DNA of 58,588 bases from Pseudomonadota bacterium (GTDB lineage Bacteria; Pseudomonadota; Gammaproteobacteria; Burkholderiales; Burkholderiaceae_C), in NCBI GenBank assembly GCA_021805825.1, contig JAJZEC010000014.1:1-58588 (forward strand), read 5' to 3'. Position numbers and translations under genes: made by a program. The stretch's first letter is position 1. Each line of letters opens with the position of its first letter. Below the pieces are notes generated by a model. It ran no database searches. It was not told the DNA's origin and saw only the letters and a list, made by a program, of their open reading frames with translations. Below are positions 53,272 through 58,588 of the stretch, piece after piece.

Positions 53272-55080
53272 ATGTGCGGAATCGTCGGCGCCGCTGCGCG
53301 CGCAAACATCGTTCCGGTGTTGCTCGAGGGCCTGCAGCGCCTGGAGTACCGGGGATACGACTCCTGCGGCCTGGCGGTGCAGGCGGGCAGCGAACTGCGC
53401 CGCCTGCGTACCACGCAGCGCGTGGCCGACCTGCGGGCGCAGGCCGAGGGCCTGCAGGCCGCCACCGGCATCTGCCACACCCGCTGGGCCACGCACGGCG
53501 CACCGGCCACCCACAACGCGCATCCGATGATCTCGCGCGGCGAGGTGGCGCTGGTGCACAACGGCATCATCGAGAACCATGAAGACCTGCGCGCGGAGCT
53601 GATCGCCGCCGGCTACGCCTTCGACAGCCAGACCGATACCGAGGTGGTTGCGCACCTGGTGCACCATCTCTACCGTGGGGATCTGTTCCAGGCCGTGCGG
53701 CAGGCCGCGGCCAGACTGCGCGGGGCCTACGCCATCGCCGTGCTGCACGTGGCCGAGCCGGAGGTCGTGGTGGGCGCGCGCGCCGGAAGCCCTCTGGTGC
53801 TCGGGCAGGGGGAGGCGGGCTGCTATCTGGCCTCCGACGCCCTCGCGCTGGCCGGCGCCGCGCAGCGCGTGGCCTATCTGGAGGAAGGCGACGTGGTGCG
53901 CATCGATCCCGACGGCGTGCGCACGGTCGACAGCCGCGGGCAGGAGGTGCAGCGCGCGTGGGCGGCGCTGCAGGCCTATGCCGGGGCGACCGAGCTCGGG
54001 CCCTACCGCCACTACATGCAGAAGGAGATCTTCGAGCAGCCGCGCGCCGTGGGCGACACCCTCGACGGCATCGAGGCCGTGGGCGCGGAACTGTTCGGCG
54101 ACCACGAAGGCCTGCTCCGGGGCGTGCGCAGGGTGCTCGTGCTGGCCTGCGGCACCAGCCACTACGCGGGCAGCGTCGCGCGCCACTGGATCGAGGCGCT
54201 GGCGCGGATTCCGGTGGACGTCGAGGTGGCCAGTGAATACCGCACCCGTGACAGCGTCCCCGACCCCGACACCCTGGTCGTCGGGGTGTCGCAGAGCGGC
54301 GAGACGGCCGACACCCTGGCCGCGCTGCGCCACGCGCGCAGCCTGGGCATGCATCGGCAACTGGCGATCTGCAACGTTCCGGCCAGCGCGATGATGCGCG
54401 AATGCACCCTCGGACTGCCCACGCGTGCCGGAGTCGAAATCGGCGTCGCGTCGACCAAGGCCTTCACCACCCAGTTGGTGGCCTTGTTCCTGCTGGCCCT
54501 GAGCCTGGCCAAGCTGCGCGGGCGCCTCGACGCCGCGCAGGAGCAGCAGCAACTGCACCACTTGCGCCATCTCCCGGCGGCCCTGCAGGCGGCGCTGGCC
54601 ATCGAGCCGCAGATCATCGCATGGGCGGAGACCTTCACCCGCCACGACAACGCGCTGTTCCTCGGCCGCGGCATGCACTACCCGATCGCCCAGGAAGGTG
54701 CGCTGAAGCTGAAGGAGATCTCCTACATCCACGCCGAGGCCTACCCGGCCGGCGAACTCAAGCACGGCCCGCTGGCGCTGGTTACCGAGGCCATGCCGGT
54801 GGTCGTGGTCGCTCCCAACGACGCGCTGCTCGACAAGCTCAAGAGCAACCTGCAGGAAGTACGCGCACGCGGCGGCAGGCTCTACGTGATGACCGATGCG
54901 GGCACGCGCATCGACAACAGCGACGGCGTGCACGTCATCCGCCTGCCCGAGTACTACGGCCTGCTGTCGCCGGTGGTGCAGGTCGTTCCGCTGCAACTGC
55001 TCGCCTACCACACGGCCGTGGCACGCGGCACCGACGTCGACAAGCCCCGCAACCTGGCCAAGAGCGTGACGGTGGAGTAG
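53272..55080 (+). CDS. glmS: Glutamine:fructose-6-phosphate aminotransferase
   Basis: Makes glucosamine-6-phosphate. The N-terminal glutaminase begins MCGIVGAA with Cys2 as nucleophile after Met removal. Two SIS domains follow ([28 protein letters not shown], then [13 protein letters not shown]), and the C-terminus NLAKSVTVE is the conserved tail that closes the active site. The 602 residues are normal. The last codons form the recognition sequence used by Tn7-type transposons (attTn7), and the DNA just beyond shows signs of such an insertion. Confidence 0.98.
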
Positions 55081-55107
55081 GGGAGAGTGTGTGGCTGTGC
55101 GCTGACT
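55045..55107 (+). other. attTn7-type attachment site
   Basis: The final 36 bases of glmS encode the conserved NLAKSVTVE tail, the region bound by TnsD in Tn7. Tn7 inserts about 23-25 bases past the glmS stop. Here that point falls at about 55103-55105, exactly where the repeat-bearing foreign-looking DNA begins. Confidence 0.6.
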
Positions 55108-55150
55108 TCACAAAATAAAGTCCGTCGGGCCAAAATAAAGTCGGTCGGGC
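55096..55150. mobile_element. Probable end of a Tn7-like transposon
   Basis: Two tandem 20-base repeats, 55111-55130 and 55131-55150, differ at one base and contain CAAAATAAAGTC. This is close to the GACAATAAAGTC core of Tn7 TnsB-binding sites, in the same inward orientation. Counting from TG at 55103 to the end of the first AAGTC gives 20 bases, the spacing in the Tn7 right end; an alternative terminus is TGTGCGCTGAC at 55096, which resembles the Tn7 terminal TGTGGGCGGAC. The element would extend rightward out of the window. Seen: repeats and position. Inferred: transposon identity. Confidence 0.6.
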
Positions 55151-55554: not shown

Positions 55555-56823
55555 ATGCCCCAACTTGCTGTTGAGTTCGAGATCTCAAACAACGAACTCC
55601 GTCTCGTCTACCGACCACGCGATGACACCAACTGGGTTCGGGAGAGGTTCGAGCGTGGCGATGGACTTCTGGTCAAGGGCACGTTCCGCCTCACGCCTCA
55701 GGACCTCGTCGAAGACGCTGCAGATGAGGCGGCCAGGGCGTCTGGTGATGGCGAGATCCAGTGGGTAGAAGACGATCGATTGGTGTTTGCCGTCGCCATC
55801 GCAGACGGTGAGTACTTCCGGTTCAAGCCGGAAGTCCTTGGATTCGAGACACCGGTCCTGCTGCACCGGGATGCGCAGCCCGACTGGAAGTGGTTTAGTG
55901 CCGAACGCAGGGTGTCCATCCTGGCCGTCATCGAGAGCCTCGGTCTCGAACGCATCGTTATCGGCGGCCCGGATCCGGAAGCCATTCCGATTCCGGAGTA
56001 CACGCGCTTGCTCAAACAGTTACCGACGCCGCATGAACTGAGACGCTATGTCCAGGCTCGCGTCGGAACCGTGGTTCGCCAGTACACAGAGCCGTCGATC
56101 GACGCCGAAGAACTGCTGAACGCCTATGTCGGCAGGCGGACAACGGCAATTGCGCCAAACCTCGAGGCATCGTTTCGCCAGTTCGATATCGCCAAGTACG
56201 ACTTTGCTCTGCAGCGGCTTCAATCGATGTTGACCAATGAGGCTGGACCCTCGGAGGCGCAGTGGCAACTGGAGATTGTGGAGATCATCCTGCTTCTTAA
56301 TCCCAGATATATCAAGGCTTTTACCGAGGTGAGGCTCCGGGACGAGGACGCATCGACCTGGCGGCGCATCGATATCCTGCTGGTCGATGCATCCGGAAAT
56401 GTGGACGTCATCGAGATCAAGAAGCCAATGAGCAAACCCATCATGCTCCCGACTCTTTACCGCGACCACCACCTGCCGATGCGCGATCTGATCGGTGCCA
56501 TGGGTCAAGTTACGCACTACCTCAGGCACCTGAACCGGTGGGGGTCGACTGGCGAGAACTATCTGACCGAGTTGCTCGGTCCACAACTGCCTAAGGGCTT
56601 CAGGATCCGGATCATCAACCCATCGGGCATCGTGATCATGGGGCGCAGCAACACGCTGTCCGACGCGCAGAGGCGCGAGTTCGAAGTGCTGCGTCGCGAC
56701 TCCAAGGGAGTTGTCGATATCGTGACCTACGATGACCTGTTGGCGCGGCTCCAAGCGGTCCTGGATCAGTTGCGTGGCGGCCCTGCCGTCAGCGCAGCTC
56801 CAGAATCTCCACCGTCCGAATAG
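55555..56823 (+). CDS. Shedu-like (DUF4263) nuclease, anti-phage defence candidate
   Basis: 422 residues. The C-terminal half contains a PD-(D/E)xK-type nuclease core: LNPRYIKAF, then RRIDILLVDASG with Asp273, VDVIEIKKP with Glu287 and Lys289, a following GQVTHYLRHL with a conserved Gln, and INPSGIVIMGRS. This order matches the Shedu SduA/DUF4263 family, single-gene anti-phage systems. The N-terminal 230 residues are a separate sensor-like region, variable in the family. ATG 55555 follows GAGGA at good spacing. It is the first gene beyond the transposon-like end. Confidence 0.78.
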   Translation: MPQLAVEFEISNNELRLVYRPRDDTNWVRERFERGDGLLVKGTFRLTPQDLVEDAADEAARASGDGEIQWVEDDRLVFAVAIADGEYFRFKPEVLGFETPVLLHRDAQPDWKWFSAERRVSILAVIESLGLERIVIGGPDPEAIPIPEYTRLLKQLPTPHELRRYVQARVGTVVRQYTEPSIDAEELLNAYVGRRTTAIAPNLEASFRQFDIAKYDFALQRLQSMLTNEAGPSEAQWQLEIVEIILLLNPRYIKAFTEVRLRDEDASTWRRIDILLVDASGNVDVIEIKKPMSKPIMLPTLYRDHHLPMRDLIGAMGQVTHYLRHLNRWGSTGENYLTELLGPQLPKGFRIRIINPSGIVIMGRSNTLSDAQRREFEVLRRDSKGVVDIVTYDDLLARLQAVLDQLRGGPAVSAAPESPPSE

Positions 56824-57346
56824 ATCGGCTCGGTGACGAGAATCTCTCCCGGCCTGGCGACACCGTGGCCGAGACCTGCTGGCGCGAAGCTAGCCTGACC
56901 GAGCGCGACGGGCGGCGGCCTGGGTCGAGCGCGGCAGTTCGCACGGGCTTGAAGCAGCCGCGTAGGGCGCGGGTGATCTCGATGTCCGCAATTGGCCGAA
57001 ACCGACCTCGTGGCGCGAACGAGCGAAGGGCTACACAGGTTTAGGTTTGTCCGATGCCTGCCCGTGCGCGCAGGCGATCTCACGCAGTACTTGGCGTGAG
57101 GGTAGGCGTTGGACAAAGCTCCAGGGAGGAAACCGCGGCGCGTGTGGCAACCGTAGTGGAAGCGGATGCCGCTATGGGGATTGCGGCGGCGAGGTGGCGG
57201 GCTGCATCGCCTCCGAACTCGCGCAACCTCTCCCGGAGCGCCTACCGCGAGAGCGGTTTAGTCCTTGGCCGACGTGGAGACGATGGGCATGAATGAGATC
57301 CTCCGCTAGGCTTAGACCCTCACGCTGTGGCGAGAAGGGTGCAACC
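56824..57346. other. 523-base gap without a supported gene
   Basis: Several frames of 80-116 codons cross the segment on both strands, all Arg-, Ala- and Pro-rich without recognisable motifs or good ribosome binding sites. It may hold a decayed gene or a promoter for the gene at 57347. AAGGG at the end precedes that gene's ATG. Confidence 0.4.
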
Positions 57347-57856
57347 ATGAAGGGGAGCGTTTTTCTGTTCGGGCTCTGCCATCGCGATCAGCGCCCATGC
57401 GGTGCTGAACCAGGCGACGGCCTGCGCAGCCGTCTGCTGACAGAGATTGCGGGCCGTGCTATTGACTTCATTAGCGAAGAGGCGCCACCTAGCAAGGAGT
57501 CTCGCATGACGATTGCTCAATGCCTCGCGGGCGCCCACGGGATCCAATACCGTAACGTTGATCCTACAGAAGCAGAGCGTCATCGACTAAAAATCCGCAC
57601 AGACCTCACTAGCGGAGAGTATGAGGACATATGTGCGTCCGATGATCCGCATGGCGCCGAGCGATTGAAGCTTGCTGAGCTAGCCGAGCCGCGGGAGCAG
57701 AGATGGCTGCTCCAAATCCGGCAGATTGATACCGTTTGGAGGTCGATGCTCTTTGTCTGCGGCGCCCATCACGTTGTGTCGTTTCGCGCCAAGCTGCTTG
57801 CAATTGGTTATGAAGCACAAATCATTGAGCCAGATTGGCCTAGTCGCCAGCAGTGA
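57347..57856 (+). CDS. Unrecognised 169-residue protein with TraB/TIKI-like motif spacing
   Basis: I do not recognise a named family. Conserved-looking motifs are FLFGLCHRD (Gly9-x-x-His12), IDFISEEAP (Glu44-Glu45), NVDP near residue 70, EPREQRWL (Arg116-Glu117) and a C-terminal LFVCGAHHV (Gly139-x-His141-His142) before a final strand. A GxxH near each end plus a Glu pair and an Arg is the pattern of the TraB/TIKI/EreA-like metal-dependent fold, so a hydrolase is possible. There is no signal peptide or span. ATG 57347 follows AAGGG; an in-frame ATG 54 bases upstream exists. Its location suggests a cargo gene. Confidence 0.65.
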   Translation: MKGSVFLFGLCHRDQRPCGAEPGDGLRSRLLTEIAGRAIDFISEEAPPSKESRMTIAQCLAGAHGIQYRNVDPTEAERHRLKIRTDLTSGEYEDICASDDPHGAERLKLAELAEPREQRWLLQIRQIDTVWRSMLFVCGAHHVVSFRAKLLAIGYEAQIIEPDWPSRQQ

Positions 57857-57988
57857 TCATCATCACGCTCGACCCGGTCGCCAGACACACCAAGACATCT
57901 GATGTTGGTGTGCGAATGCCGATTGAGTCTTGGTTGCGCAATAATCAATCGACTCATTGATCTCATAAATCTAGAGTGGGGGATAGTT

Positions 57989-58159
57989 ATGTGGGGTTAT
58001 ATCTTTGACGCGTCGATCGTCCTTTTGATGCTCTGGATCGCTTCGTCGCTGCACAATATTGCGCACCACTCGAAGGCTACATATGACATCGTGTGGTCAA
58101 GCGTTCTCAATAAATCTACGGTTGAAGAGATCCTCGCGGAGCTTAAAAAAAGCACCTAG
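57989..58159 (+). CDS. Small single-span membrane protein
   Basis: 56 residues from ATG 57989, which follows GGGGGA at suitable spacing. One hydrophobic segment (about residues 4-22, FDASIVLLMLWIASSL) is followed by a His-bearing stretch HNIAHHSK and a charged amphipathic tail ending EEILAELKKST. It fits a membrane anchor or small toxin/effector, but nothing identifies a function. The frame is open 29 codons further upstream. Confidence 0.5.
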   Translation: MWGYIFDASIVLLMLWIASSLHNIAHHSKATYDIVWSSVLNKSTVEEILAELKKST

Positions 58160-58376: not shown

Positions 58377-58588
58377 ATGTCAAACAAGGCCCTTCAAGCC
58401 AAGGCCCGCGATTTCATCGAGGCGCGCGACTGGCACATGGCGCTTTGGAAGTTTTACGACACCGTGAAGCACTATCCGTCTTGGGTCTCGCGCGATGACT
58501 TTCAACGAAAGTTCAATATCGGGGTTCGCGAAATCTCTAAGGAGTCCCGCCAGCTATCAAACGAGCCTTCCAGAGAGGCCGTCGACTT
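58377..58588 (+). CDS. Partial gene, open at the right edge
   Basis: A frame starts at ATG 58377, six bases after a strong GGGAGG, and runs without a stop for 70 codons to the end of the window. The N-terminus reads MSNKALQAKARDFIEARDWH, then an aromatic-rich stretch (LWKFYDTVKHYPSW) and a charged segment. I do not recognise a family. The ribosome binding site and uninterrupted frame in lower-GC DNA support a real gene. Confidence 0.55.
   Translation, partial: MSNKALQAKARDFIEARDWHMALWKFYDTVKHYPSWVSRDDFQRKFNIGVREISKESRQLSNEPSREAVD

Follow-up and report, generated by a model that had tools for sequence, protein, structure and literature searches.

The window, by which we mean the whole stretch of 58,588 nt that was analyzed, makes up the entire contig C59 of a 3.35-Mb genome that is distributed over 110 contigs and rated 100% complete. 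In its 3' part lies glmS, whose TAG stop codon occupies positions 55078 to 55080. It is followed by a short spacer, a TGA terminus (55103 to 55105), two direct repeats, and four ORFs, the last of which is cut by the contig end (Table 1). The readable part of the supposed element, from the terminus to position 58588, comprises 3.5 kb.

Table 1. Features of the window around the 3' end of glmS
Feature	Coordinates	Strand	Basis and remarks
glmS (glucosamine-fructose-6-phosphate aminotransferase)	53272..55080	+	Host gene, 3' end is the attachment site; ORF of 602 aa; Pfam SIS (1e-51) and glutamine amidotransferase domains
Spacer from glmS stop codon to transposon terminus	55081..55102		22 nt, read from the sequence; same 22-nt spacing in G013
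Transposon terminus TGACTTCACAAAATAAAGTC	55103..55122	+	Right end by analogy with relatives; 31.9 bits
Putative TnsB site 1	55111..55130	+	Direct repeat D4; core unique to this place in the genome
Putative TnsB site 2	55131..55150	+	Direct repeat D4; abuts site 1, 20-nt period; reached by 0 of 100 shuffles
Shedu (SduA, DUF4263) anti-phage gene homologue	55555..56823	+	422 aa, first cargo gene; Pfam SduA_C, 7.1e-27; PADLOC SduA PDLC00388, 1.9e-137
Cargo ORF, function unassigned	57293..57856	+	ORF; inner start possible at 57347
Small cargo ORF	57986..58159	+	57 aa; part of an ORF; Pfam match below cut-off only
Cargo ORF running off the contig	58377..58588	+	Open-ended ORF; no Pfam or PADLOC match

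The initial annotation had described two 20-base direct repeats past the glmS stop codon, a TG terminus at 55103 placed 20 bases before the end of the first core, and a change in base composition at the insertion point. The repeats lie where it had put them and are identical at 19 of 20 positions (95%). The first core ends at 55122, which gives 20 nt from terminus to core end, as in relatives, and the spacer after the stop codon measures 22 bases. The composition change was borne out as well, with a G+C content of 0.68 to 0.74 across glmS (500-base windows) and of 0.50 to 0.67 from position 55000 onward.

An array of approximately 20-bp TnsB-type repeats is present just inside the end as two 20-nt copies, and the same array was detected at 62 other loci. 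The core AAAATAAAGTC has exactly two copies in the 3.35-Mb genome, both at this end (55103 to 55150), with no reverse and no control match. When up to two mismatches were allowed, the window contained four matches compared to 0.53 expected, a number reached by 0 of 100 shuffles. On a matrix of the 62 related ends, the score of the terminus was the highest in the 4.6 kb scanned. In its place, 22 nt past the glmS stop codon, the insertion is typical of attachment-site Tn7-like elements; the protein choosing this place we infer from Tn7 (see below). One copy of a target duplication would correspond to the last four bases of the spacer (55099 to 55102) or to the last five (55098 to 55102).

The site behind glmS in same-genus genomes

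The same-genus set comprised 28 genomes including that of the window. Nine had no GlmS match, two had a partial one (G002 and G010), and four glmS regions were unusable because of unread bases (G015) or because the contig ends too soon (G007, G017, and G024), so that 13 regions were tested. Direct repeats were present behind glmS in 12 of the 13, the window included, with a 20-nt period in 10 of the 12 and with several sequence types. In 11 of these 12 regions the observed array was reached by no more than 1 of 100 base shuffles (G004, 8 of 100). The sole tested site without repeats was that of G016 (L049). Since 12 of 13 regions carry direct repeats of varied sequence, we consider the site downstream of glmS a hotspot.

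The repeat type of the window was found directly behind glmS in only one other of the same-genus genomes read, G013 (L018/L034), and the DNA behind the G013 end is unrelated to that of the window. A comparison with related genomes had been proposed to reveal whether the same repeats and downstream genes are a conserved, collinear feature. The readable same-genus genomes have no such collinear copies and carry other arrays instead.

In two genomes, several types of Tn7-like elements were stacked head to tail behind glmS (G011:C4, loci L046 and L126 to L128; G021:C2, loci L043, L044, L131, L132, L161, and L162). The stacks consist of TGT-type elements with 5-bp duplications, followed by TGA-type ends, which in G021 lie approximately 111 kb from glmS.

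TGA-type ends elsewhere and their transposition genes

The 62 other loci with the doubled motif were retrieved by an exact scan with the pattern AATAAAGTCNGTCGGN{1,30}AATAAAGTC. They are named mostly as beta- or gammaproteobacteria, and one belongs to a Planctomycetales bin. The core columns are invariant across these loci because the search pattern demands them. At 11, 10, and 9 bases before the core, positions that are not part of the pattern, T was found in 61, G in 60, and A in 54 of the 62 ends.

Twenty-nine of the 62 loci are located behind glmS, 24 of them at a distance of 22 to 25 nt and the others at 15, 16, 17, 20, and 68 nt. Another 14 are located downstream of an ammonium transporter gene, as judged by C-terminal sequence (L071, L078, L080, L083, L086, L091, L095, L102, L104, L107, L109, L113, L121, and L122); one of these genes (L080) was checked with Pfam (2.6e-87). 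Judging from these sequences, the ammonium transporter gene appears to be a second home gene of the TGA end family. Four further loci directly follow what seems to be the distal end of a different Tn7-like element; the other 15 are located elsewhere. When the ORFs (90 aa or longer) that lie within the 62 loci, many of which have little interior DNA, were clustered, no family occurred in three or more loci beyond the tns and TniQ genes and the ORFs of one Pseudomonas element.

A pattern search for inverted partners was conducted in 52 genomes, and 18 pairs were counted among the matches listed (more exist). They are in G021, G060 to G062, G064, G067 to G071, G075, G077, G079, G082, G087, G090, G097, and G103 (loci L172 to L175 and L183 to L215). 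Ends were matched by eye with their nearest plausible counterparts, and those of the G087 pair are on different contigs. The flanks of the 18 counted pairs matched by exactly 4 bp in 12 pairs, by 5 bp in 1 (G021, AGCTT), by 3 bp in 1, by 2 bp in 2, and not at all in 2. Two pairings were left out, one with an alternative candidate left end in G075 and one of a second G082 element; neither has a 4-bp flank, and adding them would give 12 of 20. Extension of the 4-bp match by one base was seen in 3 of 12 cases on one side and in 2 of 7 (non-tandem cases) on the other, which is about chance. A 5-bp duplication for the group, first suggested by G021, was overruled by this predominance of 4 bp. Two TGT-ended elements (G011 and G021) measured in the same way had 5-bp duplications.

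The native TnsB family was identified by way of a Pseudomonas trivialis element that carries such ends. With the TnsB of this element as query, 9 of 22 chosen genomes, its own among them, gave matches, and the genome of the window gave none. TnsB of the TGT-ended G005 element, when used as a query for the native group, missed the native TnsB in G003 and G021. Nine elements with TGA-type ends, eight from the 62 loci and one in G021, gave hits for TnsA, TnsB, and TnsC (TnsA partial in G021). TniQ/TnsD hits were obtained in eight of the nine, with two TniQ-family genes in several, and the TnsD-type protein of P. trivialis has the Pfam domains TnsD and TniQ.

A profile of seven TnsB proteins matched the Tn7 TnsB structure 7pik (3.7e-9), and one of six TnsA proteins matched the Tn7 TnsA structures 1t0f/1f1z (4e-9). 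No Pfam model was matched by the two TnsB and one TnsA scanned (TnsA and TnsB of L133, TnsB of L144). Similarly, three TnsB and two TnsA (L133, L144, and L137 included) had no NCBIfam model above the cut-off, one TnsA touching a TnsA-like model far below it. This NCBIfam silence is not peculiar to the TGA group, since the TnsA and TnsB encoded by the TGT-ended G005 element were also unrecognized. Given the TnsA, TnsB, and TnsC hits, the matches to Tn7 structures, and the TnsD and TniQ domains, we conclude that these are the ends of a genuine, diverged Tn7-like group.

In the nine elements, the first tns or TniQ hit lay 79 bp and 2.0, 4.7, 8.7, 8.7, 9.5, 11.1, 12.0, and 17.3 kb inside the doubled end, although a nearer, diverged TniQ could have been missed. 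Eight of the nine tns operons point away from the doubled end, and that of G068 is reversed. We therefore call the window end the right end, a label given by analogy, and the inward-reading orientation assigned to it at the outset agrees with the relatives. The initial annotation had also noted the lack of a tns gene behind the end and regarded the missing tnsA as a sign of a variant layout, a non-autonomous element, or a remnant. The lack was confirmed in the window by tblastn (E ≤ 1e-4), but it is not unusual: in seven of the nine relatives the first hit lies more than 4.6 kb inside, beyond the readable 3.5 kb, so that no tnsA beside the end is ordinary spacing for the TGA-ended group.

As an observation on a single element of the group, the TnsB gene at the ammonium transporter site of a Dechloromonas bin (G061, L071/L141) seems to be internally shortened and stands beside a short TnsC frame, as in a decaying copy.

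Comparison with Tn7 and nature of the window end

Taken together, the 62 other loci, 29 of them behind glmS, and the TnsA, TnsB, TnsC, and TniQ/TnsD of relatives support the original proposal, and the feature is very probably the right, glmS-facing end of a Tn7-like transposon that sits in attTn7. That the repeats are instead a conserved terminator or regulatory element of glmS is hardly credible: they do form an array directly behind a gene, but other arrays occupy this site in the same genus, none does in G016, and the same motif stands behind the ammonium transporter gene and also, in inverted orientation, at far ends that have target duplications. On the Tn7 model, a TnsD-type protein would bind the 3' coding end of glmS and TnsC would be recruited next. 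TnsA and TnsB would then excise the element and join it, right end toward glmS, approximately 22 bp beyond the stop codon. The two abutting 20-nt repeats would serve as the TnsB sites of this end, and TGA would be its terminus. The copy is likewise only presumed to be mobile.

Tn7 ends in TGT, its TnsB sites have the core ACAATAAAGTC, and it makes a 5-bp target duplication. The window terminus is TGA, A being the third base in most relatives, and the TGA relatives predominantly show 4-bp duplications (12 of the 18 counted pairs). In Tn7, tnsA lies next to the end, whereas most members of the TGA group have cargo between the end and tnsA; the two TniQ-family genes in several members are a further difference. 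On the other hand, the solved TnsA and TnsB of Tn7 resemble the proteins of the group, one member of which has TnsD and TniQ domains. Closely spaced TnsB-type sites are also found at the glmS-side end of Tn7, as in the window. The glmS-side insertion of Tn7 is placed approximately 20 bp past the stop codon in the available text of PMC2918618, compared to 22 nt in the window. The Tn7 right end has four partly overlapping 22-bp TnsB sites according to the available text of PMC11406308, whereas the window has two abutting 20-nt sites. Because terminus and site array differ, we assign the window end to Tn7-like transposons broadly and not to prototypic Tn7.

The Thiomonas Tn7-like elements of G005, G026, G011, and G021 share the insertion site and the direct-repeat arrays with the window but have TGT termini and other repeat sequences. 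TnsABCD were detected in the G005 element, and TnsABC with TniQ in the G026 element. TnsB of elements of these types matched the TGA-group TnsB profile weakly. The G011 and G021 elements adjoining glmS have the 5-bp duplications GTTGT and CCATG, in contrast to the mostly 4-bp duplications of the TGA group.

We regard the TGA group as a widespread, little-described Tn7-like group. Its traits, namely, TGA ends, mostly 4-bp duplications, diverged TnsA and TnsB, and a second home gene, make the variant worth naming. Neither a 4-bp duplication nor a home at an ammonium transporter gene was described for Tn7-like elements in the openly licensed papers searched, including the available text of PMC8649781, PMC10293859, and PMC11406308. 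No paper turned up there on Tn7 at glmS of Thiomonas, or on TnsB binding sites at glmS together with defense. This silence is weak evidence of novelty, since the search covered openly licensed papers only.

Cargo and completeness of the window copy

The first cargo gene is predicted, from its sequence, to be a Shedu-type defense gene. Its product has the SduA C-terminal domain according to both Pfam and PADLOC, and residues 6 to 407 align to positions 2 to 397 of the 402 in PDLC00388, which is nearly the full length. In addition to these features shared with Shedu, the gene is distinguished by its position just inside a Tn7-like end. Homologues in the plasmid collection (seven records) are 31 to 39% identical, three of the seven over at least 80% of the length. 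The next ORF (57293 to 57856) had no match in Pfam, PADLOC, or the plasmid collection. Tn7-like elements are known to carry defense genes, and targeted DNA-insertion tools are based on them. Defense genes are described as their usual cargo in the available text of PMC11406308 and in the title of PMC8649781; neither the main text of PMC8649781 nor the available text of PMC11406308 mentions Shedu. Shedu and Tn7-like elements with cargo appear together in the available text of PMC10121019, on E. coli defense islands.

No tns or TniQ gene was detected in the window with the tns proteins of G060, G067, G005, and G026 as tblastn queries. Profile searches for native TnsA and TnsB were negative in the entire assembly to which the window belongs, and the same searches gave strong matches for both in G003 and, in G021, a strong one for TnsB together with a partial TnsA. 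The other matching same-genus genomes showed weak cross-matches, at least partly to TnsA or TnsB of other Tn7-like types. Furthermore, TnsB of the G005 element was not found in the assembly, and a TniQ (PF06527) search of the genome gave no match, a result that we disregard because the controls gave none either.

A recognizable left end was not detected in the assembly either. The 38 other motif matches with up to three mismatches were read and scored, and none was end-like; a reversed control pattern gave 59 matches at the same threshold. The best stray match reached 10.4 bits, compared to 31.9 bits for the window end and at least 19.6 bits for each left end in the 18 pairs counted among relatives. 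We also looked for the far junction via a chromosomal block shared by G001 and G013 (C10:42255-43913 in the genome of the window), and found no end in 44.5 kb of C10, up to and past the block. The left end and the target duplication cannot be shown for the window copy because the contig stops 3.5 kb inside the element. Since TnsA, TnsB, and a left end were all missing from the assembly, the copy is probably devoid of its own transposition genes, being either a tns-less element or a remnant. These absences speak against an intact element but leave the identification of the end as Tn7-like unaffected.

A remnant, in which a deletion left the right end and some cargo, is a reading that we hold tentatively. 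It is consistent with G013 (3 contigs), which has the same end behind glmS and no left end within 60 kb. Among the matches listed, G013 has no inverted site genome-wide at up to one mismatch, and it gave a weak cross-match to TnsB of another type. In line with this, G011 harbors an orphan TGA-type end; the 51 kb that follow it showed no left end, and no native TnsB was found. On the other hand, the end repeats, the terminus, and the Shedu frame are intact in the window. Moreover, left ends lie 60 to 70 kb away in G068, G070, and G077, and that of G021 deviates from the core by two bases, so that a left end missing within a given stretch or at up to one mismatch is no proof of a deletion.

Somewhat doubtful is a tns-less satellite, consisting of both ends and cargo only and moved in trans by a related TnsABCD. 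Elements of this kind seem to exist: that of G069 is 17.7 kb long, with both ends, the 4-bp duplication GTCG, no tns hit inside, and no native TnsB in the genome. In Janthinobacterium G064 (L194, G064:C17:11000-13200), 1.75 kb between inverted ends behind glmS contain a single Abi_2 defense-like gene, again without a native TnsB. The lack of TnsA and TnsB in the genome of the window fits such a satellite, but neither a left end of the window copy nor a helper element was seen there. In addition, the flanks match by only 2 bases in the G064 pair and by 3 in the tns-free G082 pair (approximately 15 kb).

Somewhat doubtful, too, is an intact autonomous element whose tns genes and left end are in an assembly gap or on a missing contig. 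The early contig end, the fragmentation into 110 contigs, and a first tns or TniQ hit at 4.7 to 17.3 kb from the doubled end in seven of nine relatives would allow for it. This is countered by the native TnsA and TnsB profiles, which find the genes of G003 and G021 and are silent in an assembly rated 100% complete. In view of the tns-free relatives and of the absences in the genome itself, a tns-less or broken copy is therefore likelier than an assembly gap. The most specific reading is unlikely as a whole. By this reading, the window would contain a tns-less satellite with a defense gene, belonging to a distinct TGA-ended Tn7 subgroup with a 4-bp stagger and a home at glmS or the ammonium transporter gene, whose small defense cargo would be spread by the borrowed transposase of full-length relatives. 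Copies such as that of the window, whose end stands without tns genes, would be overlooked by tnsB-based surveys.

The doubled end motif was also detected on plasmids, at positions 310631 to 310664 of the Pseudomonas amygdali plasmid NZ_CP127046.1 (97%, E = 3e-7) and, weakly, at positions 235702 to 235735 of the Diaphorobacter plasmid NZ_CP049911.1 (85%, E = 0.07).
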